Shown here one piece after another: positions 8,295 through 38,814 of a stretch of 64,000 bases of DNA. The notes beneath the pieces were generated by a model. That model had not been told where the DNA came from. It saw nothing but the letters and a program-made list of their open reading frames with translations, and did no database searches. The stretch lies in the NCBI RefSeq assembly GCF_001969445.1, contig NZ_CP017297.1, positions 1,364,001 through 1,428,000 on the forward strand. Reading direction: 5' to 3'. Each line of letters opens with the position of its first letter. Within the stretch, counting starts at the first letter, position 1. Made by a program: the position numbers and the translations under genes. This DNA comes from Brachybacterium sp. P6-10-X1 (GTDB taxonomy: Bacteria; Actinomycetota; Actinomycetes; Actinomycetales; Dermabacteraceae).

Positions 8295-8308
8295 CCCGGC
8301 GGGGCGGA

Positions 8309-8338
8309 CCGCCCGGCCGCACCGCGCGCGCCGGGCGG
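8309..8338 (+). terminator. GC-rich hairpin after kbl
   Basis: CCGCCCGGC (8309-8317) pairs with GCCGGGCGG (8330-8338) across a 12-nt loop. There is no T tract, as is common in high-GC actinomycetes, so its role as a terminator is inferred. Confidence 0.55.
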
Positions 8339-8519
8339 CGACCCCACGTCGAGGGCGGTCCTGCTTCCCGCCCCGGGCCGGGAGCACCACCGGCCGCCGA
8401 GAAGCCCGTCGTGCTCGGTCCCGAGGACGGCGGTGACCGTTCTGCCCCAGGAGGTCGGCGGCAGTTCCGCGGGCATGCCATGCACGATCAGAGGGCACCG
8501 GCCCCGCTACGGTGGGGCG

Positions 8520-17222: not shown

Positions 17223-17239
17223 CATCGTGAGTGCACTCG

Positions 17240-17607
17240 TGGAGCCGGCGGGAATCGAACCCGCGTCCGATAGTGCGGAGCGAGGGCTTCTCCGGGCGCA
17301 GTTCGCAATGGCGTTTTCTCAGTCCCGACGCTCGTGCGAACGCGTCGTCGACGGACTCAGTCACTCTGAGGTGTTCATCCGACCTCGATGACGAAGGTCG
17401 GCAGCAGTGGCTCCTTGGATGATGGAACGATCCGGGTCAGGAGCGAGCCCGGGGTTCCAGACTGCTAACGCTGATCAGGCAGCGAGAGCGAAGTCAGTGC
17501 GCTTGGGTTCGGCACTTATTGGTTTCCAGAGGACATTAACGAGATGACTCTGGGTTCTCGGCCCGCTTCCCCTCGCTGGACAACTACCGTCGAAACCGAT
17601 CGGCCCC
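17240..17607 (-). ncRNA. ssrA: Transfer-messenger RNA (tmRNA)
   Basis: The minus strand begins GGGGCCGATCGGTTTCGAC and ends with a T-arm and acceptor (GGTTCGATTCCCGCCGGCTCC), typical of one-piece tmRNA. The 5' GGGGCCG pairs with 3' CGGCTCC. CCA is not encoded (ACGA follows), so it must be added after transcription. The internal reading frame encodes a tag ending ALAA. tmRNA with SmpB (18437-18946) rescues stalled ribosomes and marks the unfinished protein for proteolysis. A TTGACA box at 17673-17678 on the same strand may be the -35 element, with some 5' processing. The ORFs drawn across this region are not genes. Confidence 0.97.
17475..17513 (-). other. tmRNA proteolysis tag reading frame
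   Basis: Resume codon GCC at 17511-17513, stop TGA at 17475-17477. It encodes AEPKRTDFALAA, to which the tmRNA-borne alanine is added first. The terminal ALAA is the Clp recognition end; KRTDFALAA is the usual actinobacterial form. Confidence 0.95.
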
Positions 17608-25096: not shown

Positions 25097-25596
25097 CGGG
25101 ATCTGGCCTCTCCTTCGACGGTCAGGGGGATGGACGTGTTCGTCCGTCGTGTGAACCATCCTGCCAGGGGCGGGTGCGTCCGCGCGGTCAGGACCACATG
25201 GACCGTCCCGTCGGCGTCGACGGAGACGTCGGCGACGCGGAGGTCCTCGGTGCGGGTCGAATCGATCGGGTAGCTGCGCAGCTGTTCTACGGCGGCGCGG
25301 CGGGCCGACCCGGTATGGATCGCCGCGCCGGAGGAGTCGACGTAGATGCGCGCCGGGTCCACGGCCTGGGAGGCGGCCAGGGCCGCGCTGTCGGCGGCGT
25401 GCTGCAGCTCGGTGCGTTCGAGGTGGACCCCGGTGATGGCGGTGCCCACGCCGATCACCATCAGGATCACCACCAGCACCCCGGTGGTGAGGATGGTGAT
25501 GGATCCACGGGTCGCTCGCAGCCGCGCGCGCAGGCGGTCCAGCTGAGCGCGGTGTCGACGTCCCGGCTGAGCGCGGTGTCGGCGTCGGACGCTCAT
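25093..25596 (-). CDS. TadG-like pilus assembly protein
   Basis: A 167-residue protein with one N-terminal membrane helix (ILTTGVLVVILMVIGVGTAI) followed by HLERTELQHAADSAALAASQA, the signature of the Flp-pilus TadG/TadE N-terminal region. The basic leader contains two copies of RRHRAQ encoded by a ~28-bp direct duplication. It overlaps genes on both sides by 4 bp (ATGA). The family acts as a minor pseudopilin or anchor in the cell envelope. It is much shorter than proteobacterial TadG. Confidence 0.8.
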   Translation of the reverse strand: MSVRRRHRAQPGRRHRAQLDRLRARLRATRGSITILTTGVLVVILMVIGVGTAITGVHLERTELQHAADSAALAASQAVDPARIYVDSSGAAIHTGSARRAAVEQLRSYPIDSTRTEDLRVADVSVDADGTVHVVLTARTHPPLAGWFTRRTNTSIPLTVEGEARSR

Positions 25597-26147
25597 CGGT
25601 CCCCTCCGCTGTCGGCGCGGTACTGATCCACCTGAACGGCGTGGGCGGCGCCGACGGCGACGGGGCCCGTCTCCCCCAGGATCGGCCCGAGCCCCGGGAC
25701 CGGGACGGGGATCCGGACCTGGGCGCGCACGGTGCCCCCGGGACTCGAGCAGGGATCCTCGCTGCAGGAGATCTCGACGACGTCCCCGTCCTCGAGGCGG
25801 AAGTCCTCGAGGACCAGCGCGGCGTGCTGCTGGGTGCGCATCGTCGCCCGGTCCGGATCGGTCTCGACCGCGTGGATGCGGGCCGCGTCGCGGGCGATGG
25901 TGTCGGCGGCGAACACTGCGGCCTGGACCGACCCCAGGGTCAGGACCAGATACAGCGAGGGGATGAGCAGAGCGGCGGCGAGCACGACGAATTCGACGAT
26001 GGTGTTGCCGTCCTCGGCCGCGAGGCCGACCGGTTCCCCGAGCCACCCCCGGCGATGGCGCGGTCCCACCCGGGAGCCGTGGGGATCGGCGTGCGTGCGG
26101 CGGAGTGCTGTGGACCGGGCTCGCTGTGCGCCGCACCGCCTGCTCAC
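25593..26147 (-). CDS. TadE-like pseudopilin
   Basis: The 184-residue product has a basic leader, then EDGNTIVEFVVLAAALLIPSLYLVL, the TadE-type segment with the conserved Glu after the likely prepilin cleavage site, then FAADTIARDAARI. A Cys pair (CSEDPC) in the outer part may form a disulfide. ATG at 26147 overlaps the previous stop by 4 bp, which favours this long leader. Minor component of the Tad pilus. Confidence 0.82.
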   Translation of the reverse strand: MSRRCGAQRARSTALRRTHADPHGSRVGPRHRRGWLGEPVGLAAEDGNTIVEFVVLAAALLIPSLYLVLTLGSVQAAVFAADTIARDAARIHAVETDPDRATMRTQQHAALVLEDFRLEDGDVVEISCSEDPCSSPGGTVRAQVRIPVPVPGLGPILGETGPVAVGAAHAVQVDQYRADSGGDR

Positions 26148-26602
26148 CAGGTCTCCTCATCGATCGCGCGCCCCTCGACGGTGAGCGTTCCGGCGGGGCC
26201 GAACAGGCCGACCAGCGGGAGCGTCGCGCTGACCTCCACCTCGATGGTCCCGTCGGCGCTCTCGGCGGCCGTCGCCTCGGCTTGGAACGAGTCGCCGAAG
26301 CGATCGCCGATGAGTCGCTCGGCACGCTCCGCCCCGTCCTCCGGGCTCGCGCCGACCAGCGAGGCATGATGTGCCCCCTGCACCGCGGCGTCGATCAGGG
26401 TGTTACGGGTGTGGACGATGAGCGCGGCCTGGACCACTCCGAGGGCGATCAGCACGATCAGCACGGCGACCATCGGGAACTCCACCACGGCCGAGCCCTC
26501 CTCACTGCGCAGTCGGTGGACCAGCGGCCGTGCGTACCGCGCACGGGTGACTCGTCCGCGGGGCGGGCTCGGGTGCTGCGGGTGGCGGTGCACGGCGGTC
26601 AC
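26144..26602 (-). CDS. TadE-like pseudopilin
   Basis: A pilus protein with SEEGSAVVEFPMVAVLIVLIALGVVQ, the TadE hydrophobic segment with its +5 Glu, and HTRNTLIDAAVQGAHHASL. I place the start at the GTG at 26602 (152 aa), 29 bp after the pilin-like gene; a GTG at 26551 is also possible, and the ATG at 26752 would overlap the upstream gene and adds nothing recognisable. Functions with the neighbouring TadE and TadG proteins in the envelope. Confidence 0.78.
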   Translation of the reverse strand: MTAVHRHPQHPSPPRGRVTRARYARPLVHRLRSEEGSAVVEFPMVAVLIVLIALGVVQAALIVHTRNTLIDAAVQGAHHASLVGASPEDGAERAERLIGDRFGDSFQAEATAAESADGTIEVEVSATLPLVGLFGPAGTLTVEGRAIDEETW

Positions 26603-26631
26603 CTCGGAGCGGGGGTCGACGCGAGGCTCGT

Positions 26632-26892
26632 TCAGAGGCTGCCGCCGAGGAAGGGGGCCATGGCGTTCTCGAAGATCTGCACGATCTGGTCCGAGGCGAC
26701 GGCCCAGAGTGCGACCACGATCCCGGCGGTCATGAGCGTGATGAGGACCCATCCGGGGACGTCCCCGCGCTCGGATCCCAGGCGCGCGACCAGGCGTGCG
26801 GCGAGTCCCGGGGGACCTTCGGCTCCTCGGGCGGGTGCTGGTGCGACGACGCGGCGGGACGAGCGGTGCAGGCGGGTGCGGTGGACGGTCAT
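26632..26892 (-). CDS. Flp-pilin-like small membrane protein
   Basis: The 86-residue protein has a basic leader, GSERGDVPGWVLITLMTAGIVVALWAVA, and a short tail. Size, single helix and position right after tadC match a Flp/class III pilin or pilin-like subunit. The usual Glu at +5 of the mature protein is absent if cleavage follows the Gly, so it may not be a classical pilin. Start ATG at 26892. The tadC C-terminal fragment ends 115 bp upstream. Confidence 0.7.
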   Translation of the reverse strand: MTVHRTRLHRSSRRVVAPAPARGAEGPPGLAARLVARLGSERGDVPGWVLITLMTAGIVVALWAVASDQIVQIFENAMAPFLGGSL

Positions 26893-27007: not shown

Positions 27008-27085
27008 TCAGACGGAGATCTCCAGGACGGCGAGGCCGGGGAAGATGGCGAAGACGATCACCAGGGGCATCACGAAGAACACCAC
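27008..27085 (-). pseudogene. tadC: Severed 3' end of tadC
   Basis: These 26 codons encode the last transmembrane end of TadC (VVFFVMPLVIVFAIFPGLAV and the tail ending ISV). They continue in frame from the main tadC body at 37945-37077 once the integrated element is removed. In the present arrangement the fragment has no start and is orphaned. Confidence 0.93.
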
Positions 27086-27113
27086 GGGAGCGGACCACGC
27101 TTTGGGGTACTAC
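27072..27113. other. attL of the integrated element
   Basis: Host DNA ends at the core AC (27084-27085). Element DNA starts GGGAGCGGACC and carries the half-arm GGGGTACTAC at 27104-27113, the perfect inverse of GTAGTACCCC near attR. Confidence 0.88.
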
Positions 27114-27116
27114 CCT
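27111..27116 (+). promoter_or_regulatory. Predicted -10 box of the integrase, leaderless
   Basis: TACCCT ends seven bases before the ATG at 27124, so transcription would begin at or next to the start codon. It overlaps the attL arm, so integrase binding could block its own promoter. Confidence 0.55.
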
Positions 27117-27123
27117 TGACGGC

Positions 27124-28623
27124 ATGACCCACGACGCCCCCGCCCCGCTGTCCGCCGCCATCTACTCCCGCATCTCCCGCGACGACCGCGGGGACGAGGC
27201 GGGCGTGCGCAGGCAAGAAGCCGACTGCCGGGAGCTCGCCGCCCAGCTGGGCTACACCGTCGCAGCCGTCTTCACCGACAACGACCGCGGCGCCTCGACC
27301 AGGTCGAAGAAGGCGCGCCCCGCGTACGCCGAGATGCTGCACCGGGCCCGGGCCGGTGAGTTCAGCGCCGTGCTCGCCTACTCGACCTCTCGGCTCACCC
27401 GGCGCCCCAAGGAGAACGAGGACCTCATCGAGCTGGTGGAGCGGCGCGGGGTGCAGATCAAGACTGTCGTCTCTGGCGACTACCGTCTCGACACCGCCGA
27501 CGGGCGCGCCGTGGCCCGCACCCTGGCCGCGTGGGACGCCGCCGAAGCCGAGCGCACCGCCGAGCGCGTGAAGCGCGCGATGCTGGAGCGCGCCAAGGAA
27601 GGCCGCTCGCACGGCATCACGCCCTGGGGCTGGACGCGCGCGTTCGACGGGACCGAGCAACTCGACACCGAGGTCGCCCCGATCCTGAAGGACGTCGCCC
27701 GCCGGGTGCTGGCTGGGGCCTCGCTCCGGTCGGTGTGCGCCGACCTGAACGCCCGCGGCGTGGCGACCCCCTCCGGCAAGGGCTCGTGGAACGCGACGGT
27801 GCTTCGGCAGGTTCTCCTACGCGAGCGCAACGCCGGGAGGCGGGTGCTGTACCCGACTCCCAAAGAAGGTGAGAGGCGCCGTGCGCATGCGCCGATGATC
27901 ACCCGGGGCAAGTGGCCCGCCATCCTCTCGGAGGACGAGCAGGACCAGCTGATCGCACTCCTGACCGACCCTGCCCGGCGAACCTCACGCGGCACGGAGG
28001 TCCGCTACCTGATGAGCGGCAAGCTGCTGTGCGGCAAGTGCGGCGCCCGGATGCGGTCTCAGGTCGGGGCGAAGTTCACCCGCAAGGACGGCACCGGCGG
28101 CCGCCGCCCCTGGGCCTACGTCTGCGCAGTCAACTTCTGCACGAGGGCCAAGGCAGAGGATGTGGACGAGGCCGTCGAGGGACTCCTCCTCGCCCGTCTC
28201 CGGGCCGAGGATGGGCCGACGGTGCTGTCGGCCGACCGGGGCGGCACACAGGCCGCCGCTGACCGTCTGGCGGGGCTCCAGGCACGGCTCGACCGCGCTG
28301 CCGACGAGTATGCCGACGGGCTGATCGAGGCGAGCCAGCTCTCACGCATCACCGAGCGGCTGCGCCCTCAGATCGCCGCTGCCGAGCTGGAGCTGTCCGC
28401 CTCGATGCCCTCCCCCGTCCTCGCCGCCTTCTCCGCTGAAGCTCGCCAGCAGTCGGTGGACGCCGCATGGGCCGGGGCCTCACTGGACGTCCGCCGGGCG
28501 GTGCTCGACGCCCTCGCAACCTTCACTCTGAAGCCTGCCGGGAGCGGGTCGCAGTGGTCGCCCGATCGGCTGGCTGTGCGCTGGGTTGGTAACGACTCGG
28601 TAACGGAAACCGAGGCCCCCTGA
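27124..28623 (+). CDS. int: Large serine recombinase (integrase)
   Basis: The 499-residue recombinase has the N-terminal catalytic domain IYSRISRDDRGDEAGVRRQ (catalytic Ser about residue 18), EFSAVLAYSTSRLTRRP and the long helix EAERTAERVKRAM. The recombinase domain follows (GITPWGWTR), then a zinc ribbon with LLCGKCGARM and YVCAVNFC, and a coiled-coil segment. This is the architecture of actinophage integrases that cut at a 2-bp core without host factors. It lies 38 bp from the left junction, the usual place. No ribosome-binding site precedes the ATG, consistent with leaderless start. Confidence 0.95.
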   Translation: MTHDAPAPLSAAIYSRISRDDRGDEAGVRRQEADCRELAAQLGYTVAAVFTDNDRGASTRSKKARPAYAEMLHRARAGEFSAVLAYSTSRLTRRPKENEDLIELVERRGVQIKTVVSGDYRLDTADGRAVARTLAAWDAAEAERTAERVKRAMLERAKEGRSHGITPWGWTRAFDGTEQLDTEVAPILKDVARRVLAGASLRSVCADLNARGVATPSGKGSWNATVLRQVLLRERNAGRRVLYPTPKEGERRRAHAPMITRGKWPAILSEDEQDQLIALLTDPARRTSRGTEVRYLMSGKLLCGKCGARMRSQVGAKFTRKDGTGGRRPWAYVCAVNFCTRAKAEDVDEAVEGLLLARLRAEDGPTVLSADRGGTQAAADRLAGLQARLDRAADEYADGLIEASQLSRITERLRPQIAAAELELSASMPSPVLAAFSAEARQQSVDAAWAGASLDVRRAVLDALATFTLKPAGSGSQWSPDRLAVRWVGNDSVTETEAP

Positions 28624-28931
28624 GGGCTTGCGCGGCCGCCGACCTGGGGCGACTTACTACGCATTTACGTAGTAGCGATTCCGGCTCTGGAAAGCACGCC
28701 AGGGTATCGAGAGGCGCTTTCTGCCATCGACTTCTGGGAGTAGGGTATCGACCGTCAAGAAGAACGAAAGTCGCGATCAGGGGCGCCCCGCAAGGGGGAG
28801 ACAGCCCCGGCGGCACAGGGCTTAGGCAGACGACTCGGTGCGGTCCCTCACGGCGACACCGCGTAAGGCGAGAAGCAGACCGATAGCCAGCTCAGCGGCT
28901 GGCACTTGCCCGGACACCACGGAGAACCTCC
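28624..28931. promoter_or_regulatory. 308-bp control region between integrase and replication genes
   Basis: No gene seen. GC is lower in the left part. It has a 7-bp inverted repeat (28655-28674) and two direct copies of AGGGTATCGA at 28701 and 28742, 41 bp apart. These look like repressor or replication-initiator sites, but no cognate protein can be named. The right end carries the promoter and leader of the 69-aa ORF. Confidence 0.5.
28655..28674. promoter_or_regulatory. Operator-like inverted repeat
   Basis: TACTACG-CATTTA-CGTAGTA: perfect 7-bp arms around 6 AT-rich bases. TACTAC also occurs in the att arms, so the integrase or a directionality factor could be the ligand. Confidence 0.55.
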
Positions 28932-29141
28932 ATGTCCGGCAAGACGTCCGACCCCGTCCATCTCGCCCGTTCGGCCGTCGCTAACGCCGTCCGCACTCGT
29001 CAGGACCCCACACCGGCCCGTCAGCAGCTCAAAGAAGCCAAGCTCACCCGCTGGATTGACGAAGCCCTCGCGACGGCGCCACCGCTCACCGACGAGCAGC
29101 GACACCGCCTCGCCGCGATGCTCACCGGCGGTGCCCGGTGA
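28932..29141 (+). CDS. Small hypothetical protein of the satellite
   Basis: The 69-residue basic helical protein (MSGKTSDPVHLARSAVANAV, then LTRWIDEALATAPPLTDEQR) follows a GGAGA site. Its stop overlaps the GTG of the replication gene by 4 bp, the best evidence that it is real. Position suggests a role in replication control or as a directionality factor for the integrase; neither is shown by sequence. Confidence 0.7.
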   Translation: MSGKTSDPVHLARSAVANAVRTRQDPTPARQQLKEAKLTRWIDEALATAPPLTDEQRHRLAAMLTGGAR

Positions 29142-31351
29142 ACGCCCTCCAAGACGACGGAGCGCCCGCCCCGGCGCGAACCGAGACGGGCGCTAGCGCG
29201 AACCGAACCGGCCGTGAAAGGACAACCGATACCGGGAAGTCTACCGCCCGAGAATCCTTGCTCGTAAATGCGAGGAAGCTCGCCGGAATGGGCCTCTATC
29301 TATTTCCGGTGAAGGCTCTAGAGAAGTCCCCGGCGATCACGGGCTGGCAGGCGGCGTCCACGCGCGACCTCGACACGATCAAGGGCTGGGTGCGTCGGGG
29401 GTTCAACCTCGGCATCGACACCGAGAAGTCCGGCGTCATAGGCATCGACGAGGACGCCGCCGGGGCGCTCGACGACTGGGCCGCCCTGTGCCCGGTCGAC
29501 CTTCCGCCGACCTTCGTCACGCGCTCTGGGTCCGGCGGCCGTCACGCCCTGTTCCGGCCACCTGGCAGGGCACTCTTCCGCTCCTCCAACCTCCGGTTCC
29601 GGAGCGCGGGCATGCGCATCGACGTGAAGGCGCGCGGTGGCTTCCTCGTGGCGCCTGGGTCCGTCATGCCCAAGGGCGCCTACGGCATCGCCGAGGACGC
29701 CGCGATTGCCGAGCTGCCCGCCCAGGTCGCCGAGGCCTGGCTCCGGCCAGTTGAGGCCGTCGCACCGGCGCCTGTAGACGGACTCGGCCCGAAGCCGACT
29801 TTCATCGCCTCCGAGGAGCCTCAAGAAGGGCCCTTCCCTGCATCCGCGGTCGAGTACCTGCGCGCGGCTGCCGAGGGAGAGTTCCAGGGGCTCCGAGCGG
29901 CCTGGGAGTGGTCCGAAGGCGAGCATCCAAACGGCTACGGCTGGCGGCAGCTCACCCTCAACGTCGCCAACCGCCTCGTGCTGGTGGCGAACGCCGCGCC
30001 GGATGCCTTCCCGCTGGCCGTCCTCCGCGAGCGCTTTCTCGCCGAGGCGCCTACGGACCCGGGCTGGACCCCGGCCGACAACGAGGCGCGCTGGGCAGAT
30101 GCCGTTGAGGATATCGGCGGCTGGGCCAAGCCGATCCCCGCATCTGCGCTCGACCCGGCGGCGGTGTTCTCAGCCGTTGACGGTGAACAGGCGCCGAGGG
30201 GCTCCGAGACTCCGGCGGGCATCTTCGAGCTGGAGGTCGCCCGTGAGGTTCAGCGCCTCCAGGTCCGCGAGGAGGCCCGGCGCCGCTTCGAGGCGGCCCA
30301 CGCTCCCCAACCGACCGAGTGGGACGCAGGAACGCTGACCGACCACTTGCTGAAGCCTCCCCCGCCCGCCGCGCGGGTGGAGGGGCTGATCCCGTGGGAG
30401 GCCTCGACCACCATCGTTGCCCAGCGCAAGACCGGCAAGACGACCTTCGAGCTCAACCTGGCGCGGTCGCTCATCACCGGCGAGCCCTTCCTCGGCGCCT
30501 TCGACGTGCGACCGGTCGACGGCAGGGTCGCCTTCCTCAACTTCGAGGTGTCCGGCGCCCAGATCACCGGCTGGGCCGCAGACCTGGGGATCGACCCCGA
30601 GCGGTTCTTCCTGGTCAACCTCCGCGGCGTCGCGAACCCGTTCGCCACGCCTTCGGAACTCGACCGGCTGGGCGCGCTGCTCCGCCGCCACGAGGTCGAG
30701 TCGATCATCGTGGACCCGTTCGGGCGCGCCTTCACCGGCGAGAGCCAGAACGACGCCGGACAGGTGCAGTCGTGGCTGCTGGAGCTCGACCGCTTCGCGC
30801 GGGCCGAGGCCGGTGCACGGGACGTCGTGCTGTCTGTCCACGCGGGCTGGGACGGCGAGCGGACCCGCGGTTCGTCGGCCGTGGAGGACTGGGGCGACTC
30901 GCTCATCTACCTGACCAAGGACCCCGAAGCCAAGGACGATCCCGCGAGGTTCTTGCGCGCCGATGGCCGCGACATCGACGTGGCCGAGGACCAGCTCCAC
31001 TTTGACCGCACCACGCGCCTGCTCACCCTCACGGGGCGTGGAAGCCGACGAGCAAGCCGAGCAGCCCGGAAGATCAACAGCCTCATGCCCGCCGTGGTTG
31101 AGGTCATCGAGGCCGAGCCGGGCATCAAGACCGGCGAGATCGAGAGCCGCCTTCGCACCGCCGGGTGCGCCTTCCAGAAGGGCGACGGGCCCCAGGCTGC
31201 GAAGGCGGCCGAGGCGGCGAACTTGGTGCGTTCCGAGCCCGGCAAGGGCACGACCGTCAGGTGGTTCCCCCGCCCCGGTTCGGTGCACTTCCCGCCGGAC
31301 GGGGAGGACGAGACCCCCGGGGAGGGTCCCCGCGGAGGTGCCCCGAAATGA
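29138..31351 (+). CDS. Bifunctional primase-polymerase / RepA-type AAA helicase
   Basis: A 737-residue replication protein. Residues ~45-210 form a prim-pol (archaeo-eukaryotic primase-like) domain: FPVKALEKSPAITGWQAAST, GIDTEKSGVIGIDED with catalytic acids, and SGSGGRHALFR. From ~400 a RecA-fold AAA domain follows with Walker A VAQRKTGKTTFELN and Walker B SIIVDPFGRAFTGE, of the RepA/hexameric helicase type. A winged-helix-like tail ends it. It would start and unwind element DNA. GTG start overlaps the upstream stop. Confidence 0.9.
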   Translation: MNALQDDGAPAPARTETGASANRTGRERTTDTGKSTARESLLVNARKLAGMGLYLFPVKALEKSPAITGWQAASTRDLDTIKGWVRRGFNLGIDTEKSGVIGIDEDAAGALDDWAALCPVDLPPTFVTRSGSGGRHALFRPPGRALFRSSNLRFRSAGMRIDVKARGGFLVAPGSVMPKGAYGIAEDAAIAELPAQVAEAWLRPVEAVAPAPVDGLGPKPTFIASEEPQEGPFPASAVEYLRAAAEGEFQGLRAAWEWSEGEHPNGYGWRQLTLNVANRLVLVANAAPDAFPLAVLRERFLAEAPTDPGWTPADNEARWADAVEDIGGWAKPIPASALDPAAVFSAVDGEQAPRGSETPAGIFELEVAREVQRLQVREEARRRFEAAHAPQPTEWDAGTLTDHLLKPPPPAARVEGLIPWEASTTIVAQRKTGKTTFELNLARSLITGEPFLGAFDVRPVDGRVAFLNFEVSGAQITGWAADLGIDPERFFLVNLRGVANPFATPSELDRLGALLRRHEVESIIVDPFGRAFTGESQNDAGQVQSWLLELDRFARAEAGARDVVLSVHAGWDGERTRGSSAVEDWGDSLIYLTKDPEAKDDPARFLRADGRDIDVAEDQLHFDRTTRLLTLTGRGSRRASRAARKINSLMPAVVEVIEAEPGIKTGEIESRLRTAGCAFQKGDGPQAAKAAEAANLVRSEPGKGTTVRWFPRPGSVHFPPDGEDETPGEGPRGGAPK

Positions 31352-31416
31352 AACCGCAGATCAAGCGTGACACCCCGAGGGTCCCCGCTCCCTCCCCGCT
31401 CCCCTTTGGGGACCCT

Positions 31417-31442
31417 CCCCGACCCCTCTATGAGGGTCGGGG
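31417..31442 (+). terminator. Hairpin after the replication gene
   Basis: CCCCGACCC (31417-31425) pairs with GGGTCGGGG (31434-31442) over an 8-nt loop, between the replication protein and the next gene. It may separate early from later functions. Confidence 0.55.
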
Positions 31443-31485
31443 TGGGTCCGGGGGCCTCAACACCATCAACCGAAAGGACCTTCCA

Positions 31486-31761
31486 GTGACCGACGACCAG
31501 CCCACGCCCGGGCCCTTCACCGAGGTGATCCTCCGGCGGAACACCCTGCTGCCGGACGGCTCGACCCACGGCTCCGAAGGCGCCTTCTCGATCGCGTCCG
31601 ACCCGGTCTCCGGCGACCTGCTCCACGCCCTGTCTGCGATGGTCGACCGCCTCGACAAGGCCACCGCCCGGGGCATCGCTGAGGCCCACGGCACGGAGGC
31701 GGGCATGGCCTACCTCGACCGCGTCGCCGAGGCCACTGCCCGCTGGACGGAGGACCGATGA
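31486..31761 (+). CDS. Hypothetical 91-aa satellite protein
   Basis: GTG start behind AAAGGA. Contains FTEVILRRNTLLPDGSTHGS and a helical tail (LLHALSAMVDRLDKAT). No family recognised. Stop overlaps the ATG of the WhiB-like gene by 4 bp (ATGA), so the two are translated together. Confidence 0.7.
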   Translation: MTDDQPTPGPFTEVILRRNTLLPDGSTHGSEGAFSIASDPVSGDLLHALSAMVDRLDKATARGIAEAHGTEAGMAYLDRVAEATARWTEDR

Positions 31762-32114
31762 GCCTGCACGTCGAATCGACCCAGTGGCCGGCCATGTTCA
31801 AGCGCCAACAGCGCGCCGTCCCGAAGTTCCCGGCACCGGCGCGGTCCGCCTGGGAACGGCTCCGGGCCGGGCTGGCCGCTGCACCGAGCTGGGCAGTGCC
31901 TTGCCGCGACGACGGACATGGCGACGACTGGCTGACCGACCACGACCCGGCGGCCATTGCGCGGGCCGTTGAAGCCTGCGGCGCCTGCCCCCTACTTGCC
32001 GCCTGCCGTGACTTCGCCGAGGCCTCCCGCGCCCCGGCCGGTGTCTGGGGCGGGCATGCCTATACCTCCGCCACAACCCGAGACCAGCCCACGGCGACCG
32101 CCGCCGGGGCCTGA
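31758..32114 (+). CDS. WhiB-like iron-sulfur protein of the satellite
   Basis: The 118-residue protein has four cysteines in the WhiB pattern: Cys49 (VPCRDD), Cys74 and Cys77 (CGACP), Cys83 (AACRD), followed by the turn GVWGG at 95-99. WhiB proteins bind a 4Fe-4S cluster and act on the sigma factor region 4. Actinophages carry similar genes to change host transcription or block superinfection. The usual basic C-terminal helix after GVWGG is replaced by a Thr/Ala tail, so DNA contact may be missing and it may act by sigma binding alone. Confidence 0.85.
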   Translation: MSLHVESTQWPAMFKRQQRAVPKFPAPARSAWERLRAGLAAAPSWAVPCRDDGHGDDWLTDHDPAAIARAVEACGACPLLAACRDFAEASRAPAGVWGGHAYTSATTRDQPTATAAGA

Positions 32115-32128
32115 CCGAAAGGAACACG

Positions 32129-32404
32129 ATGAACATCGACAAGAAGCTCGCCGAGCAGGCATCTGCGCGGCTGGCCGCCGAGGACCGCGCTGTGCGCGTC
32201 GAGGCCGAGAATGCCGAGCTGCGCGAGCAGATCGCCGAGCGAGACGAGCAGCTCGCCCGGGAGCGCCGTGAGGCTGAACGCGTCAAGCAGGAGCGGGACG
32301 ACCTTCGCGACGAGCTGGACGGCATCGAGCTGCCCCCGGGCGTCGCCTCCGGTCGCCGCCGCGCCCGCCGGGCGATCGTCACTGAGAGCGGGGCGGGCCG
32401 ATGA
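32129..32404 (+). CDS. Small coiled-coil protein
   Basis: The 91-residue protein is highly charged. A continuous coiled coil (EDRAVRVEAENAELREQIAE and onward to RDDLRDELDG) is followed by a basic tail GRRRARRAI. Preceded by GAAAGGA. Overlaps the next ORF by 4 bp. Function unknown; a DNA-binding or scaffolding aid is possible. Confidence 0.65.
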   Translation: MNIDKKLAEQASARLAAEDRAVRVEAENAELREQIAERDEQLARERREAERVKQERDDLRDELDGIELPPGVASGRRRARRAIVTESGAGR

Positions 32405-32610
32405 CCGGCGAGCCCCGCCCGGTCCAGCCGCTCCGTGTGCAGCGGGCGGGCGGGGCCGGGCGGGGCGGCGCCGTCATCAAGCAGGGCAACCGCTCGGTGT
32501 TCATCCCTGCGCACATGCTTCCGCAGATCGCCGCCGCCCTGACCCGAGTCCACGACCAGAACGCCGTCGCGGCCCAGTCCGTGCGCTACAGCACCAGGAG
32601 CACCCCATGA
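32401..32610 (+). CDS. Hypothetical 69-aa satellite protein
   Basis: Contains QGNRSVFIPAHMLPQIAAAL, with no cysteine motif or membrane segment. Retained because it overlaps both neighbours by 4 bp (ATGA). No family recognised. Confidence 0.6.
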   Translation: MTGEPRPVQPLRVQRAGGAGRGGAVIKQGNRSVFIPAHMLPQIAAALTRVHDQNAVAAQSVRYSTRSTP

Positions 32611-32933
32611 CCACTGCCTTGCCCAACTGCCCCGCCTGCGGCCGCGAGTGGCTGCGAGGGCTCACCTGGCGCCACACGACCGCCTGCCCGCACTACGAGC
32701 CCGACTCCGCAACCGCGGCGGCCGACCACGACCGGTACCGGGGCACCCGCCCCATGACCACCACCGAAAGGACCCTGACCGATGGCTACTTCATCGACCC
32801 GCCCGCAGGCTCGCACCTCGCCGTCCGCTTCCACCACGCCGGAGGCATCCACCACCGAGAGGTGGTGGAGCGCCTCGACGGCCGCGGCAACGTCACCCGC
32901 CCCGCACGACGAGCAGGAGCAGCCGATGAGTGA
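32607..32933 (+). CDS. Small zinc-finger-like protein
   Basis: The 108-residue product starts MTTALPNCPACGREWLRG and has a second Cys/His group TTACPHYEPD, together a likely zinc site. The rest is rich in His and Arg. Start ATG at 32607 overlaps the previous stop. Its 3' end overlaps the scaffold-like gene by 8 bp. Unknown role. Confidence 0.6.
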   Translation: MTTALPNCPACGREWLRGLTWRHTTACPHYEPDSATAAADHDRYRGTRPMTTTERTLTDGYFIDPPAGSHLAVRFHHAGGIHHREVVERLDGRGNVTRPARRAGAADE

Positions 32934-33384
32934 CGCTCAGCGTGCAGAGAACGCCCCTCCCGCGCACGAGGAGCCCGACGAGGCCCAGGAGGCCGTCGCC
33001 GGCACGAACGACGCGGAGAACGCCGGTTCTGAGGATGAGGGCCTGGTGGCCAAGCTCCGGAAGGAGGCCGCCGGGCACCGCTCCCGTCTGCGTGAGGCCG
33101 AGACCCGCGCCGAGGCCGCCGAGTCCCAGCGCGACGCCCTGGCCGCCTTCGCCCTTGCCGAGGCCCTCCGCGGGACACGCCTCACGCCCGAGCTGTTCGC
33201 CGCAGACGGCCACGAGCTGGCCTCGTTCATCGGCGAGGACGGGCTGGACGCCGAGCGGCTCCGCGCCACCGCCCGGGACACGGCCAAGAAGTACGGGCTG
33301 CGCGGGGGTGTCAGCCCGCACACCGGGACCGGCGGCGAGCGGCCGGCCTCCCGCACCTGGGGCGACGCCCTGAAGCAGGGCTGA
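32926..33384 (+). CDS. Phage scaffolding-like protein
   Basis: A 152-residue acidic protein: disordered Glu/Ala-rich start (EEPDEAQEAVAGTNDAENAG), a charged coiled coil KLRKEAAGHRSRLREAETRA and a short globular end (ELFAADGHELASFIGE). Composition and position one gene before the capsid protein match capsid assembly scaffolds. ATG at 32926 behind CAGGAG; an in-frame ATG at 32782 would extend it over the neighbour. It probably nucleates the shell built by the next gene. Confidence 0.72.
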   Translation: MSDAQRAENAPPAHEEPDEAQEAVAGTNDAENAGSEDEGLVAKLRKEAAGHRSRLREAETRAEAAESQRDALAAFALAEALRGTRLTPELFAADGHELASFIGEDGLDAERLRATARDTAKKYGLRGGVSPHTGTGGERPASRTWGDALKQG

Positions 33385-33397
33385 CCAGGTAGTATTC

Positions 33398-33435
33398 GGG
33401 GTGCGGTGGCCGTCCCGGCGGCGGCGCCGCACCCC
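33398..33435 (+). promoter_or_regulatory. Hairpin between scaffold and capsid genes
   Basis: GGGGTGCGG (33398-33406) pairs with CCGCACCCC (33427-33435). Intercistronic stems often tune the scaffold-to-capsid ratio; that use here is inference. Confidence 0.5.
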
Positions 33436-33547
33436 AACTTCATATCGCGATGCGTCTCCTGGCGGGACCGCCCTCACTGAGTCCTGGCGGCTCCGAGGTC
33501 TGCGAACACTCACCACGTTCACAACCGCCTTCAGGAGGCGCATTTTC

Positions 33548-34375
33548 ATGACCATGCTGACCACTGCCGAGTCCAACCGCGGCATCCTGCCCGCCGAGTA
33601 CGGCGCGCTCATCACCGACCCCGTGGCCGAGGCTGCGCTGGCGTTCCAGCCGTCCATCGCCCAGCGGGTGACCACCTCAGGCAAGACCTTCCGCGTGCCC
33701 GTCCTGGTCGAGGACGCCGCCGCCGCATGGACCGCTGAGGGCGAGGAGATCGCCCCCTCGGACCCCACCCTGGACGAGATCGAGGTGACCCCCGCCAAGG
33801 TGGCCGGGCTGACGACCATCTCCCGGGAGCTCGCCGAGGACTCCTCCCCCTCCGCCGCCGACCAGGTGGGGAAGTCTCTCGCACGGGCCCTCACCCTCCA
33901 GGTCGACAAGGGCTTCATGGGGAACCTCGCCGCCCCCGCCGCCAAGGGCCTGGGGTCCATCACCCCGACCGTGGTGTCCGGTGCGCTGGACTCGCTGGAC
34001 TCCATCCACGAGGCCAAGGCCGCGGCGGCTGCCGAGGGCGGCGCGCCTTCCGTGCTGCTGGTGAACCCGGCGGACCTCCTGGCCCTGGCTGTGCTGAAGG
34101 ACCAGGCCGACTCCAACCGCGCGCTGCTGGCCGACACCTCGGTGGTCGCCGGGCTGCCCGTGGTCTCCAGCCGCCACGTCGCCGCCGGTTCGCTGTGGAT
34201 GCTCGACGCGACGCAGATCGTCACTGTGCTGCGTGAAGACGTGACGCTTGCTGTCTCGCACGACAGCCACTTCACCTCGGACCGAGTGGCCCTCCGGGCT
34301 ACCCTCCGGGTCGGCTTCGCCTTCCCCAAGCCCGCTGCGCTGGTCCGCATCGACCTCGCCACCGCAGGCGCCTGA
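33548..34375 (+). CDS. HK97-type major capsid protein
   Basis: The 275-residue protein has the arrangement of short HK97-fold capsid proteins: ITDPVAEAALAFQPSIAQRV, VPVLVEDAAAAWTAEGEEIA and the following TPAKVAGLTTISRELAEDSS (E-loop and spine region), NPADLLALAVLKD, GLPVVSSRHVAAG, and HDSHFTSDRVALRATLRVGF at the end. A strong AGGAGG stands ahead of the ATG at 33548, so it should be highly expressed, unlike the leaderless genes. No protease, portal or terminase gene accompanies it. Confidence 0.9.
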   Translation: MTMLTTAESNRGILPAEYGALITDPVAEAALAFQPSIAQRVTTSGKTFRVPVLVEDAAAAWTAEGEEIAPSDPTLDEIEVTPAKVAGLTTISRELAEDSSPSAADQVGKSLARALTLQVDKGFMGNLAAPAAKGLGSITPTVVSGALDSLDSIHEAKAAAAAEGGAPSVLLVNPADLLALAVLKDQADSNRALLADTSVVAGLPVVSSRHVAAGSLWMLDATQIVTVLREDVTLAVSHDSHFTSDRVALRATLRVGFAFPKPAALVRIDLATAGA

Positions 34376-34383
34376 CCCACGTG

Positions 34384-34446
34384 CGAGCGGAGCCGGGCGA
34401 CCGTGCCCCGGCGGTGGACTCCACCACCAGCTTCCGGCTCCGCTCG
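34384..34446 (+). terminator. Hairpin after the capsid gene
   Basis: CGAGCGGAGCCGG (34384-34396) is perfectly complementary to CCGGCTCCGCTCG (34434-34446). No T tract. Confidence 0.6.
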
Positions 34447-34590
34447 CCCGTGTCCCGTAGAGTAAACGCAATGCCCGGGTGACCTGGGGTGATGGGGTAC
34501 CTCCCCAGCCCCCGCCCCCGGGCAAGCTCCCGGTACGGTTCGCATAGGGCCTGACCGGCTGCACGATTCAGAAACGCATTTGACCTGGCA

Positions 34591-34608
34591 CGATACAAAG
34601 ACGTATCG
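34591..34608. promoter_or_regulatory. Operator-like inverted repeat
   Basis: CGATAC-AAAGAC-GTATCG, 6-bp arms, just downstream of a TTGACC -35-like box, so it could cover a promoter's -10 zone. Confidence 0.5.
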
Positions 34609-34711
34609 AACCCCTCTGGACACCCCCAGAGGCACCGCAGGTCGCCGCATCAATACGTTACTAGCGCTACTCAACCTGCAGGTCAGGCTATCTTTTCGTA
34701 GTTCCTGAGAG

Positions 34712-34717
34712 TAGACT
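34712..34717 (+). promoter_or_regulatory. Predicted -10 box, leaderless
   Basis: TAGACT ends six bases before the ATG at 34724, placing the transcription start on the start codon. Confidence 0.5.
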
Positions 34718-34723
34718 GGGAGT

Positions 34724-34972
34724 ATGCTGAACACGAAGAGCTCCCTCATCGACCAGGCCCAGGCCGTCCTCCGCGTCGAGGGCGACCCCGACTTCCTCGC
34801 CCAGATCGACCGCGCCGTCGCCGCGGGCGCCCGCTGGATCGTGGACCCGCACTACCGCGACGTCGTCGGCCTGATCCGCCCCGGCACCGACCGCGATGCC
34901 CTGGTCGTCGTGTACGTCGCCGAGCACGACTTCGAGGCCGACACCTTCGCCCTGGCGGAGGTGGCCCGATGA
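34724..34972 (+). CDS. Hypothetical 82-aa satellite protein
   Basis: Acidic protein (SLIDQAQAVLRVEGDPDFLA, then VVVYVAEHDFEADTFALAEV). Overlaps the primase-like gene by 4 bp (ATGA), which supports it. No known family. A GGGAG lies only two bases before the ATG, too close to serve as a ribosome-binding site. Confidence 0.65.
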   Translation: MLNTKSSLIDQAQAVLRVEGDPDFLAQIDRAVAAGARWIVDPHYRDVVGLIRPGTDRDALVVVYVAEHDFEADTFALAEVAR

Positions 34973-35601
34973 GCCGCTTCACCGCCTGCCCAGTGGACGG
35001 CACCCCCGTCGACACCCTGACCGAGCGCCAGGGCCGCCCCGCCAAGTACTGCTCCGCCGCCTGCCGCCAGCGCGCCTTCCGCGCCCGCCGCCGCGAGGAG
35101 CGCGCGGCCGTCGCCGCCGCCGAGTCGATCACCCGTGAGGCCGCCGCCATCCCCGCCGAGCTCCGCGCCCGCGCCCGCTGGGTGCGTTGGACCATCACGC
35201 GCGACGGCCGGAAGCTCCCCCTCCAGGCCCGGACCAACCGCGCCGCCTCGTCCACCGACGCACGCACCTGGACCGACTACGACACCGCCGCCGCCTCGAC
35301 CGTCGGCCGGGGGCTGGGCTACGTGCTCGGCGACGGCATCGGCTGCATCGACCTGGACGACTGCTTCGATGCAGAAGGGGCCCTGTCACCGCTTGCCGAG
35401 CGGGTACTGCAGGCGAACCCCGGTGCGTGGGTCGAACGCAGCCAGAGCGGCCGCGGACTGCACGTGTGGGGCCTCATGGACGAAGCTCCCGGCCGTCGCA
35501 CCAAGGAGATCGAGGTCTACTCAGTCGGTCGGTACATCGCTCTCGGCGAGACCTTCCGCCCCGGCGGGCTGGCGCCCCTGGTTGTGCCAACTCTGACCTG
35601 A
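34969..35601 (+). CDS. Zinc-finger/primase-polymerase-like protein
   Basis: The 210-residue protein opens with a zinc-finger-like knuckle (CPVDGTPVDT ... YCSAACRQRAFRARRRE). A partial prim-pol domain follows: WVRWTITRDGRKLPLQ, then LGYVLGDGIGCIDLDDC with catalytic acids and WVERSQSGRGLHVWG. These blocks match the N-terminal module of phage and plasmid primases that normally also carry a helicase. Here the protein stops after YIALGETFRPGGLAPL. It may work with, or replace, the larger replication protein. Confidence 0.8.
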   Translation: MSRFTACPVDGTPVDTLTERQGRPAKYCSAACRQRAFRARRREERAAVAAAESITREAAAIPAELRARARWVRWTITRDGRKLPLQARTNRAASSTDARTWTDYDTAAASTVGRGLGYVLGDGIGCIDLDDCFDAEGALSPLAERVLQANPGAWVERSQSGRGLHVWGLMDEAPGRRTKEIEVYSVGRYIALGETFRPGGLAPLVVPTLT

Positions 35602-35643
35602 TGAGCACCCCTGACGTTCAGCGCACTTTTCAAAACAAGCCGG

Positions 35644-35649
35644 TATCCT
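35644..35649 (+). promoter_or_regulatory. Predicted -10 box of the ATPase-nuclease gene, leaderless
   Basis: TATCCT ends six bases before the ATG at 35656. No ribosome-binding site is present. The local AT-rich stretch (35630-35650) fits a promoter, although no good -35 box is seen. Confidence 0.55.
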
Positions 35650-35655
35650 CAGCAC

Positions 35656-37050
35656 ATGAACGTGCGCCTCCCCTCCCGGTACGAGAGCCTGGACCCCGAC
35701 TTCCGCGCCAGCCTCCGCCCTAACCGCCCGCTAATCGAAATGGTCAAAAAGGCCAGTACTGGGATGCAGATCAGCGGAGGGATCCGGTTCCTTCCAATCT
35801 ACGGACGCAGTGGTGCGGGCAAAAGCTCGGCCTCAAGGGAGCTCGCAACCCACCTTCCAGAATCCAAGGTCATCGAGCTCTCGCGTCAAGCGATCACCTC
35901 CGAATCGGCGCTGCTTCAAGAAATCCGTGAAGCCATGGGGCGCCGGAATCAGCCGAAGATTCTTATCGCAGTAGTTGACGAGTACGAAGAAAACGTCGCG
36001 GAGAGCTCATCGATTCCTTCTCAATTCATCGAGCGCCTGAGCCTATTAGACCGCCGCGGCCTCGCCGACACACCGGTCTTATTCCTTTGGCTGACGACAA
36101 GCGAGTCCTTCAGGGACGAACTCATCGCCGCAACAAGCAGGAATGAACGGATCCTTCTCGCCAAGGATTTCGAGCTCATCGGCCCAGAGAAGAAGGACTG
36201 GGCAGAAATCGTGGAAGAGACGTTCGAGTTTCACAACCAGTCACAGCCGCTCGCCGACTTCGAGGTGCTTCGCGAGGACATCGAAGCGGTGGTTGATGAG
36301 GCCCCTACGCTGGGGCGAACCATCGAACTCGTTGGCGAGCTACTCGCTCAGCACGCATCTAAACTCCAGGATCTGTCGGAATACCAGGTCGTGATGCTCT
36401 GGCCCGTCGCCGACGCAGCCCGAATCACTCGAGTTGCAGGCTTCACCAAAGCTCGCGACGGATACAAGCTTGACTGGAACTCCTTCTACCGAGAGCTGAA
36501 CGATCTGGACAAGCGGACGTACCCGCTTGCAGAACTCAATCGCGCGCGCCTCTACTTCGATGTGCGTCTAGTTCCGATTGCCGCCGCAGACCTGCAGCAA
36601 CTCTGTCAAGATTTCGACAACCCAGGCTTCATCCCGAGTCAGACCTATCTAAATCGCTTCAAGGGCACTCACTTCTACTCGATCGTCACAGAGCAGTGGG
36701 ACCCGTCATCCTATGCCCCCTTGCGGGAACGCGAATCGAAGCGTGCAAGAGATGCTCGCGCTTGGTATGACGGCGGCGTAACCCGCCACCCCACTAAGAT
36801 TGGAGCTCGAATCGCAAAGAGCCTAGCCATCCTTGGCGTGCCAGCTACCCCCGAGGCTGAGCTGAGGTCTCCGCACGCCAACCTTCGCGCTGACATCTCA
36901 ATCAGTCGACCCGACAGCCAGCAATCAACTTGCATCGTTGAACTCAAGGCCTACAGCAGCCAGAACACGCTCCCTTCGTCAATCAAGGACCAAATCCGGA
37001 CGACGCTCAAGCGCCACGCGCAGTTCGGTGGATTCCTAGCGCGCCAGTAG
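35656..37050 (+). CDS. ATPase fused to a PD-(D/E)XK nuclease-like domain; candidate defence protein
   Basis: The 464-residue protein has a P-loop ATPase core: Walker A GRSGAGKSS at 50-58, Walker B IAVVDEYEEN ~104-113, and sensor-like FLWLTTSES ~143-151. A helical middle follows. The C-terminus has RADISIS (Asp413) and CIVELKAYSS (Glu429-x-Lys431), then helix KDQIRTTLKRH, the order of a PD-(D/E)XK nuclease. Codon use and GC (clearly below 60%) differ from all neighbours, so it was acquired separately. It is the last gene before attR, a usual site for cargo. Defence function is inferred from architecture and place, not shown. Confidence 0.65.
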   Translation: MNVRLPSRYESLDPDFRASLRPNRPLIEMVKKASTGMQISGGIRFLPIYGRSGAGKSSASRELATHLPESKVIELSRQAITSESALLQEIREAMGRRNQPKILIAVVDEYEENVAESSSIPSQFIERLSLLDRRGLADTPVLFLWLTTSESFRDELIAATSRNERILLAKDFELIGPEKKDWAEIVEETFEFHNQSQPLADFEVLREDIEAVVDEAPTLGRTIELVGELLAQHASKLQDLSEYQVVMLWPVADAARITRVAGFTKARDGYKLDWNSFYRELNDLDKRTYPLAELNRARLYFDVRLVPIAAADLQQLCQDFDNPGFIPSQTYLNRFKGTHFYSIVTEQWDPSSYAPLRERESKRARDARAWYDGGVTRHPTKIGARIAKSLAILGVPATPEAELRSPHANLRADISISRPDSQQSTCIVELKAYSSQNTLPSSIKDQIRTTLKRHAQFGGFLARQ

Positions 37051-37052
37051 AG

Positions 37053-37090
37053 AAGTAGTACCCCTATCGCGGGAGAACCGGCATGAGCAT
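37053..37090. other. attR of the integrated element
   Basis: Element arm GTAGTACCCC (37055-37064) and TATCGCGGGAGA lead to the AC core (37077-37078); host tadC resumes as CGGCATGAGCATG. Confidence 0.88.
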
Positions 37091-37945
37091 GTAGATCTCG
37101 CGGCGACCGGCGGTCTCCATGAGGTCGCGTTTGGAGGACTCGCGGGCGTCCTGGGCCTGGGCCCGCAGCACGTCAGCCAGGGGCGTGCCCCGTTCGATGG
37201 CAACGGAGACGCCTTCGCCGAACCGCCCCAGGGACTGCAGCGGGGTACGGGCTCCCAGGGAGGCCAGGGCTTGGGAGACGCTGGTGCCGGAACGGATATC
37301 GGCGACGGTGGCGGCGAACTCGTCCGGCAGCGCGCCCGATGAGGTGCGGGCCACCCGTTCCATCGCGGCGATCGGGCTCTCCCCCGCCGCGACCGCCAGG
37401 GCGAGCAGATCGGCGACGGTGGGGAACTCGCGGGCCATGCGCGAGGCGCGACGCGAGATCTCCATCCCCAGCAGGTAGTCCCGCAGGAGCACCCCGGAGA
37501 GCACGCCGAGGACGGCGATGAACAGGCCCAGCAGCGGACTCGCTCCTCGGGTGCTGATGGAGAGCAGGGCGATGACGACGCCGCCGACCAGGCCGATCAC
37601 CCCGAAGATCACCTGCTCGATGCGGAATGAGTCGGTGGAGGAGCGCCGGCCGGCCAGCCTGAGCCGTCGCTCGAGCTGGTCGGCACCGCCGGTGAGGCGC
37701 TCGAGGAGGCCCAGGGCGCGCTGGGCGACCGGCCCCAGCAGGTTCTCGGTGACCACCCGGGCGCGACTCGTCGCGGCGGGAGCGCTGAAGAGGGAGGCGG
37801 ACCGCGACCGCCGCAGGTACGGGTCGATACGGGCTCCCAGATCCCGGCTCCGCAACCACGGGAGCAGTCCGGCCAGGAGGGCGAGCCCGATGCCGAGCAG
37901 GAGCCCGAGGAGGGCTCCGATCACGACGGCTCCGGAGTCGATCAT
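37064..37945 (-). pseudogene. tadC: tadC, truncated by the integrated element
   Basis: TadC is an inner-membrane platform protein of the type II secretion F family. The current frame has 293 residues: 290 native, then LPR and a stop supplied by the element. The native form would have 314. Family features are present: RMAREFPTVADLLALAVAAGESPIAAMERVA and GRRE at the end of the cytoplasmic part. Lost are the last 24 residues, which form the final membrane helix. Whether the shortened protein still works is unknown. Start ATG at 37945 overlaps tadB by 4 bp. Confidence 0.9.
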
Positions 37946-38814
37946 CGCAGCACCCGCTCGTCCCGCGGGAGGCGGGCGATCAGCAGCATGACGCGGTAGG
38001 CGATCAGCGAGACCACGGCACCGATGACGATCATCGCCATTCCGAGCGAGGAATCGTAGGCCTGGGCCGCCTGGGGCCTGGTCGACATCAGCGCCAGCAC
38101 CAGCCAGGGCGCGGCGAGGGCGAGCCGCGCCGCGTTGACGGTCCAGGACTGCCGCGCCTCGAGCTCCGCACGGGTCCGGGCGTCCTCCCGCAGGAAGGAG
38201 GCGAGGGTGCGCAGCAGTCCCCCGAGATCGGTGCCGCCGACGTCGCGGGTGATCCGCAGCGCCTCGACGATCCGGTCGCCCACCGGATCCGCCAGACGCA
38301 CCTTCAGCCGATCCAGGCACGCGGCGAAATCACCGCTGGCCTGGTAATCCAGGGAGAACTCATGGAAGGCGGGCCGCAGCTCCTCCGGGCCTTTGCGACT
38401 GAGTTGGACCAGCGCCTCCGGTAATGAGAGCCCGGCCCGGATGGCGGAGTTGATGTGGTCGACGGCTTCCGGCCAGACCTCGCGCAGCGCGGTCGCCCGG
38501 CGGCGGGCCGCCGAGCGCAGGAAGACGACCGGCAGCACAGTCGAGATCGCTCCGATCGTCAGGGACGGCACGACCGCGCTGGAGGTCGCCCACAGCGCGG
38601 CGGCGACGACGAGGCCGAGCCCCACGCTGAGCGCCGGCACCGCGGCCGGTGGAACCGACGTGAGTCCCACCGTCACCAGGTCGTCGCGCAGCCGGTCCAT
38701 GGCGCGACTGATCCGTCCGCGACGAGTCTCCGGGCCGTCCTGCTCCCACAGCGACCACCAGATCGAGAGCAGGCCGAGTCCCACGACCAGACCGAGGAAC
38801 GCACCGTCGCTCAT
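37942..38814 (-). CDS. tadB: Tad pilus inner-membrane protein TadB
   Basis: A 290-residue type II secretion F-domain protein, partner of TadC in the pilus base. Membrane helices near 5-20, 60-100 and at the C-terminus surround a cytoplasmic part with LREVWPEAVDHINSAIRAGL and VEALRITRDVGGTDLGGLLR, both family blocks. ATG at 38814 overlaps tadA by 4 bp. The frame continues upstream antisense-like into tadA territory, but the conserved part begins here. Confidence 0.9.
   Translation of the reverse strand: MSDGAFLGLVVGLGLLSIWWSLWEQDGPETRRGRISRAMDRLRDDLVTVGLTSVPPAAVPALSVGLGLVVAAALWATSSAVVPSLTIGAISTVLPVVFLRSAARRRATALREVWPEAVDHINSAIRAGLSLPEALVQLSRKGPEELRPAFHEFSLDYQASGDFAACLDRLKVRLADPVGDRIVEALRITRDVGGTDLGGLLRTLASFLREDARTRAELEARQSWTVNAARLALAAPWLVLALMSTRPQAAQAYDSSLGMAMIVIGAVVSLIAYRVMLLIARLPRDERVLR

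Follow-up and report, generated by a model that had tools for sequence, protein, structure and literature searches.

A 9993-bp capsid-carrying element in tadC of Brachybacterium sp. P6-10-X1, and related serine integrases in Tad pilus and DNA-processing genes

Small integrated elements with capsid genes have been described as candidate phage-inducible chromosomal islands (PICIs) of Mycobacterium, which were defined by an integrase plus a capsid and for which phage induction and transfer are still to be determined (PMC10654092). A second body of work concerns elements that disrupt competence genes, and Croucher et al. 2016 proposed that they do so to escape removal by transformation (PMC4774983). 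In Micrococcus luteus, deleting any gene of two tad clusters but one abolishes transformation, and the exceptional gene gives a more than 100-fold drop in one orientation (PMC4322843); a further paper states in its title that tad genes are needed for transformation in Liberibacter too. Here we describe a 9993-bp element in tadC of Brachybacterium sp. P6-10-X1, found in a window of 64,000 nucleotides (contig NZ_CP017297.1, positions 1,364,001 to 1,428,000), which is the whole stretch analysed and to which all coordinates below refer. The insertion is precise, the element belongs to a compact capsid-carrying type that recurs in actinobacteria, and relatives of its serine integrase repeatedly interrupt genes of transformation. 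We consider it probable, while leaving real room for other readings, that this is a satellite with its own capsid gene, and that its integrase shuts off DNA uptake and thereby protects the element from removal by transformation. A search of titles and abstracts in the open-licence literature gave no article dealing with serine integrases in genes of the Tad pilus.

The insertion and the genes it carries

The element (27086-37078) interrupts tadC 25 codons short of the gene's end. Joining positions 1-27085 to 37079 onward gives a single open tadC frame of 314 codons, just as a preliminary description made from the sequence alone had claimed; its C-terminal end is ...LMPVVFFVMPLVIVFAIFPGLAVLEISV. 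In the integrated state TadC terminates in ...YMLMPVLPR*, with four residues in place of the last 25, so the element does not regenerate the tadC end. The dinucleotide AC is common to both ends (27084-27085 and 37077-37078), and no longer repeat is found between the ends at that place. Shifting the join by 1 bp alters one Pro codon only, synonymously, and our automatic join scoring chose this shifted join (GG; length again 9993). The empty site of genome G009 (60-bp match, 96.7%) carries the base predicted by the AC join. The AC core of the preliminary description thus appears the likeliest placement of the join, though not the sole possible one, since the shift is synonymous and was preferred by the scoring.

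Comparison of relatives with and without the insert, which had been suggested as a check, shows tadC to be normally whole. Of 38 genomes of the genus, 36 have the gene; 30 loci were cut out, and 28 of these are uninterrupted, aligning to residue 313 or 314. In the window the alignment ends at 291, and the remaining locus reaches a contig edge. Further copies of the element in the one-contig 4.39-Mb host genome were rejected, since other matches span merely 27-38 bp; the element is single-copy. As the tadA, tadB and pilin-like frames are open, the insertion is the sole tad lesion that we noticed in this host, whose genome also has comEC, dprA and comM family matches.

All called genes of the element share one direction (Table 1), and their identities were drawn from Pfam and PHROGs searches. 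These bore out the integrase, replication, WhiB and capsid genes of the preliminary description, as well as its statement that terminase, portal, tail and lysis genes are missing, none of which was recognised above noise among the element's proteins. Its scaffold and capsid genes are both supported, with the capsid start moved from 33401 to 33548 and the scaffold-like open reading frame (ORF) set at 32926-33384.

Table 1. Coordinates of the element's genes and of the tad genes around it
Feature	Position	Strand	Remarks
Pilin/TadE-like ORFs, open	25093..26892	-	downstream of tadC
tadC 3' remainder, 25 codons	27011..27085	-	hydrophobic segment; in the restored frame
Large serine integrase, 499 aa	27124..28623	+	Resolvase and Recombinase domains; phrog_95, 7.5e-89
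69-aa protein, family F14	28932..29141	+	F14 in 4 loci, each with a serine integrase
Prim-Pol + AAA_25 replication protein, 737 aa	29138..31351	+	Pfam, PHROGs
137-aa ORF	31348..31761	+	no Pfam or PHROGs family (query began at 31339)
WhiB-like regulator	31758..32114	+	PF02467, 2.8e-8
91-aa protein	32129..32404	+	coiled-coil-like on weak matches
69-aa ORF	32401..32610	+
108-aa protein, family F4	32607..32933	+	F4 in 8 loci; zinc-finger-like CxxC...HxxxC pattern by eye
Scaffold-like protein, 152 aa, family F1	32926..33384	+	position and family behaviour
HK97-type major capsid protein, 275 aa	33548..34375	+	Pfam, PHROGs; AlphaFold2 mean pLDDT 84
82-aa ORF	34724..34972	+	no Pfam or PHROGs family
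Small primase-like protein, 210 aa, family F12	34969..35601	+	F12 in 5 loci; phrog_8643, 1.1e-50
AAA ATPase, 464 aa	35656..37050	+	C-terminal E...D...ExK residues
tadC 5' part, 289 codons	37079..37945	-	runs four codons into the element, then stop
tadB, open	37942..38814	-
tadA, open	38811..40037	-

The integrase ATG lies about 38 bp from the crossover, and the F14 protein encoded behind it is a candidate excision factor. We call the F1 protein scaffold-like more on its position and the behaviour of its family than on any strong match: F1 occurs in 31 loci (L009 and L090 being one record), usually immediately upstream of the capsid gene, and most of 14 aligned members combine a polar N-terminal part with a C-terminal W or F, after which comes A or some other small or acidic residue. 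The scaffold matches are weak (phrog_648 at 0.011 for the element's ORF, phrog_4708 at 1.2e-4 for a relative). The AAA ATPase is probably cargo. GC content drops to 57-59% in its gene region, below the rest of the element, and four of its residues (E400, D413, E429 and K431) are invariant across 26 aligned homologues and look nuclease-like by eye; at least 500 homologues exist, the 120 listed coming from actinobacteria and proteobacteria. A named defence cargo was rejected, PADLOC having found no match for six element proteins that included this ATPase. Elsewhere in the window, a tmRNA gene lies at 17239-17607 on the minus strand.

Compact relatives with a capsid gene

A profile of the capsid (A1) was searched over 396 genomes of the order and matched 20 (E<=1e-30); the 20 stretches around the matches were fetched and mapped together with other loci. 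The common gene order is integrase, small genes, replication gene, scaffold-like gene and capsid. Related elements with the same order, which the preliminary description proposed to look for, thus recur in many actinobacteria of many families. The integrase belongs to family F2, taken as tyrosine-type, in 22 loci and to the serine family F5 in seven.

The nearest relative (L020, in genome G002, another species of the genus) interrupts tadA and measures 9354 bp by its best join. Its capsid is 74.5% identical to that of the window, and a simple Nei-Gojobori count on this one pair gives dN 0.22 and dS 0.71, values that speak for constraint on the capsid. According to the preliminary description, relatives in which terminase, portal and tail genes flank the same insert would mark a deleted prophage; judged by gene families and sizes, no such genes were seen in L020.

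For a wider view, 70 proteins of at least 200 aa from 28 capsid loci were scanned; one of 71 was dropped as a piece of tadC, and the scan did not include L022-L024, L099 (a fragment), L102 (starting at a contig edge), L055 or the duplicate L090. The best 25 of 103 and 25 of 48 matched families are mostly primases and helicases, and no portal family is among them, although a portal matched by one protein could be hidden because only these best families are given. Two proteins match large-terminase families, and these are the split genes of L009 and L088: at 7861-9297 (L009, the same record as L090) and 7689-9106 (L088), two neighbouring ORFs, about 249 and 225 aa long, look as if a large terminase had been divided into its ATPase and nuclease halves. 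The capsids of L022-L024 are distant (27-28% identical), and these loci carry a portal-sized F26 gene, accompanied in L023 and L024 by a terminase-sized F74 gene. The small terminase family F3 occurs in nine loci including the prophage-like L023, with phrog_1496 matched in two members scanned, and is not found in the window's element. There and in L020-like loci (five loci), the F12 small primase-like gene sits after the capsid, where several relatives have the small terminase. Different capsid elements occupy the same neighbourhood, beside the same tRNA cluster, in L021 (G009) and L022 (G012).

Genes interrupted by related serine integrases

Because elements had been found in both tadC and tadA, we began a census of related integrases. 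A profile (A2) of five integrases, four of them tad-inserted, matched 110 of the 396 order genomes at 140 listed places (E<=1e-40). We examined 104 of these (the window, G002, G172, L101 and 100 fetched with up to 20 kb; the remaining 36 were mostly weaker or partial) and added L019, L057 and L058 from other sources, for a set of 107 loci. The interrupted gene was assigned from fragments at the integrase side, and at the far side where reached, with Pfam and pilin motifs; the comM and dprA assignments rest on L157 and L139 queries plus Pfam.

An interrupted gene was labelled in 43 of the 107 loci: pilin 11, tadC 10, tadA 9, comM 8, dprA 2, TadA-like 2 and CpaB/RcpC 1. Among the 104 order places, 39, spread over 12 bacterial families, were assigned to Tad or DNA-processing genes (pilin 11, tadC 9, tadA 9, comM 8, dprA 2), and three less certain ones bear the TadA-like and CpaB/RcpC labels. 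Two labelled insertions occur together in G352 (tadC, pilin), G318 (comM and dprA, adjacent) and G338 (TadA-like, pilin). Two assignments were rejected. The target of L139, L153 and L171 is not dprA, which is intact or begun at the near side, and was reassigned to the 3' end of comM, shortened at the far side; the integrase of L221 could not be placed in a pilin gene.

To pass the two-sided test, a locus had to have a join at which both ends share a dinucleotide and across which an open frame, similar to a reference, runs without gaps. The join was clean in 19 of 20 tested loci (tadC 10, including the viral contig L057; tadA 6; dprA 2; comM 1), each join being the best of many tried per locus, with no null run; the exception by eye was L203. 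Clean two-sided junctions thus account for 18 of the 104 order places. Support is one-sided or positional for ten of the 11 pilin cases (L209 has both sides) and for L163, L141, L152, L157, L139, L153 and L171; L154 is supported from the far side, its near side holding an FtsK-like gene, and L143 depends on two short tadA pieces.

Insertion points recur within genes. tadC is cut around the codons for M-x-x-P-V-(V/I)-F in the window, L136, L137, L138, L097 and L057, and outside the order in L272; integrases sharing this site are 32-50% alike, and those of L097 and L057 70%. In L213 and L219 tadC is entered about ten codons beyond it. The tadA insertions of L150, L155, L162 and L167 lie within the motif LN(S/A)G(L/V)PG...HANSA, those in comM near residue 84 or near 480, and those in pilins just past the GxxxAEYA motif region. 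The pilin gene at a second Tad-like locus is intact in the window's genome and interrupted at the homologous G009 locus (94.7% identical). Mapped by parsimony onto a tree of 103 integrases (41 labelled), the targets require 22 gene-level changes, including tadC 5, tadA 5, comM 4 and pilin 4, and the pattern is therefore not one inherited site. The labels cluster on the tree, with 15 changes between labelled and other against a shuffled mean of 32.

Three elements of 5-7.5 kb in tadA (L155, of 5.1 kb, L162 and L167) carry no capsid gene of the window's family; L162 and L167 have a second resolvase-like gene. They may be another kind of element using the same target.

Tyrosine-integrase loci of the capsid family served as a control. 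No tad, comM or dprA gene is present in any of the 22 (21 distinct; L022 has the distant capsid), a recheck for comEC and pilin motifs gave chance-like matches only, and tRNA genes are present in 20. A tadC match in L103 (E 0.001, 48 aa) lies within the integrase gene and was taken as chance. Beyond the order, A2 matches 61 of 394 genomes of the class at E<=1e-70, some of them order members. From outside the order we took 20 integrase-upstream stretches from 19 genomes, one side each; six end in target genes (tadC in L272; tadA in L273 and L291; comM in L277, L278 and L282), L276 and L289 lie in TadA-like genes, L275 is merely near tadA, and 11 show nothing credible. L276 was classed as TadA-like rather than tadA owing to its 39-46% identity.

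Interpretation and comparison with described systems

In the reading that we prefer, a satellite of about 10 kb would replicate through its own Prim-Pol/helicase and build its own shell from capsid and scaffold, while a co-infecting phage would supply portal, terminase, tail and lysis functions; this helper dependence is suggested by the gene content. The serine integrase inserts it precisely in tadC. Because the last 25 residues of TadC are removed, Tad pilus assembly and DNA uptake would probably stop, and an empty allele could then no longer replace the element through natural transformation, a presumed selective benefit; precise excision would restore tadC, and the element is presumed mobile. 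More broadly, we lean, with little more than even confidence, towards an actinobacterial lineage of large serine integrases specialised on the transformation machinery (Tad motor, membrane protein, pilin, comM and dprA). Its integrase would be common to capsid-carrying satellites, to small elements without a recognised capsid gene and possibly to prophages, and across the class such elements would turn DNA uptake off by insertion and could turn it on by excision.

Several observations weigh against this account. Other or unknown targets make up 62 of the 104 order places, and the A2 census over-samples kin of tad-inserted integrases because four of its five profile rows are tad-inserted. In a sample chosen by Pfam family instead (PF07508 matched 58 of 198 genomes; 30 loci cut out), only five loci lie at target genes, four beside tadA or tadC (L257 and L259, known from the census, and the new L263 and L268) and one at a pilin (L265, the earlier L184), so that three were already in the census; comM, dprA and comEC are not hit among these 30. 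Nor does any of the 107 loci interrupt comEC. Among the places with other or unknown targets, 17 rows (L182, L186, L187, L189, L190, L191, L193-L201, L204 and L206) form a clade whose serine integrases, from several families, are for the most part nearly identical, perhaps a recently spread element; in L182, the one member whose neighbour was examined, that neighbour is a luciferase-like monooxygenase gene. A capsid gene of the window's family, the only capsid family searched, occurs in just 10 of the 43 labelled loci (the window, L020, L057, L097, L136, L138, L139, L142, L171 and L213), and target choice and satellite lifestyle are therefore separable. Finally, a helper phage within the host genome found no support, since the portal family PF04860, the one portal family searched, has no match there.

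The chief rival keeps the satellite and drops the anti-transformation benefit: integrases need conserved coding sequence, Tad and DNA-processing genes are conserved yet dispensable, and insertions there are tolerated. Divergent integrases share nearly identical codons in tadC, tadA and comM, as conserved attB sites predict, some relatives adjoin genes without evident link to uptake, and comEC is spared. We nevertheless hold this rival unlikely, if deserving of attention, given that at least five genes of one process are interrupted, with the 22 gene-level changes on the integrase tree, and that genes of the same process are struck by other integrases in other phyla (PMC4774983).

Tad pili are phage receptors in Caulobacter, and the threat that pilus loss wards off, from the host and hence from the element, might be phages that depend on the pilus and not transformation. 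This seems improbable, as the same integrase family strikes comM and dprA, which act on DNA within the cell. We give similarly little credence to a degenerate prophage that has lost portal, terminase and tail genes. No virion genes beyond capsid and scaffold-like gene were recognised, as such decay would leave, yet the same compact layout recurs in loci of many families and in a 10.9-kb phage record, the capsid appears constrained, the frames are open and the ends are precise; a lone deleted prophage is likewise disfavoured by the recurrence of the compact scaffold-plus-capsid form across actinobacteria. Should the preferred reading of a satellite that shuts off uptake hold, the conflict between mobile elements and transformation would extend to actinobacteria, a group in which the machinery is understood for few species. 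In that case, insertions in tadA, tadC, Flp-type pilin, comM and dprA genes would indirectly mark transformation as important in lineages whose competence has never been shown. The reading would also suggest a means by which small satellites persist, and supply integrases with natural sites in Tad genes.

The preliminary description had the element as a capsid-carrying satellite of a type that its author did not recognise as named. The compact layout of the relatives agrees with the first part; the second was too strong, candidate PICIs of Mycobacterium having been published (PMC10654092). As described there, these candidates, including phiRv1 and phiRv2, are also integrated and compact with an integrase and a major capsid protein; replication, terminase and scaffold genes are present in some, and serine integrases in some. 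The element in the window differs in its host order, in its tadC target and in that no small terminase was found; its likeness to phiRv1 is drawn from the published description. Twelve Mycolicibacterium aichiense phage records (OR387110-OR387121, 10.9-11.1 kb) have a capsid of the same family, about 30% identical; no paper on them was found in the open-licence literature. OR387121, from soil and the one record opened, shares a serine integrase, the F1 scaffold-like gene and the F0 capsid, with no annotated portal or large terminase; unlike our element it has a small terminase, a head-tail adaptor, a stopper and an annotated tape-measure gene.

Capsid-forming PICIs (cf-PICIs) likewise make their own capsid and are expected to use a helper tail, but encode a portal, head protease, connectors, both terminase subunits and HNH (PMC10690885), none of which we recognised here. 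The Streptomyces satellites MulchRoom and MiniFlayer, treated in the same article, are also actinobacterial with their own capsid genes, and differ in encoding a portal and both terminase subunits and in lacking primases (PMC10690885).

As to the target, the preliminary description was right about a real insertion in tadC and missed that Tad pilus genes are hit recurrently. Elements inserted in comYC, comFA, comK and comM were described from Firmicutes and proteobacteria, one gene being hit by related integrases in several species (PMC4774983), and the words 'actinobacteria' and 'tad' do not occur in the available text of that article; the insertions here are actinobacterial and affect Tad genes, pilin, comM and dprA. 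As with those elements, the insertion is precise and lies in a system that M. luteus requires for transformation (PMC4322843), and related integrases interrupt genes of the same process in other species. The census pattern fits the competence-disruption proposal (PMC4774983) and would extend it to actinobacteria and to targets beyond those named there.

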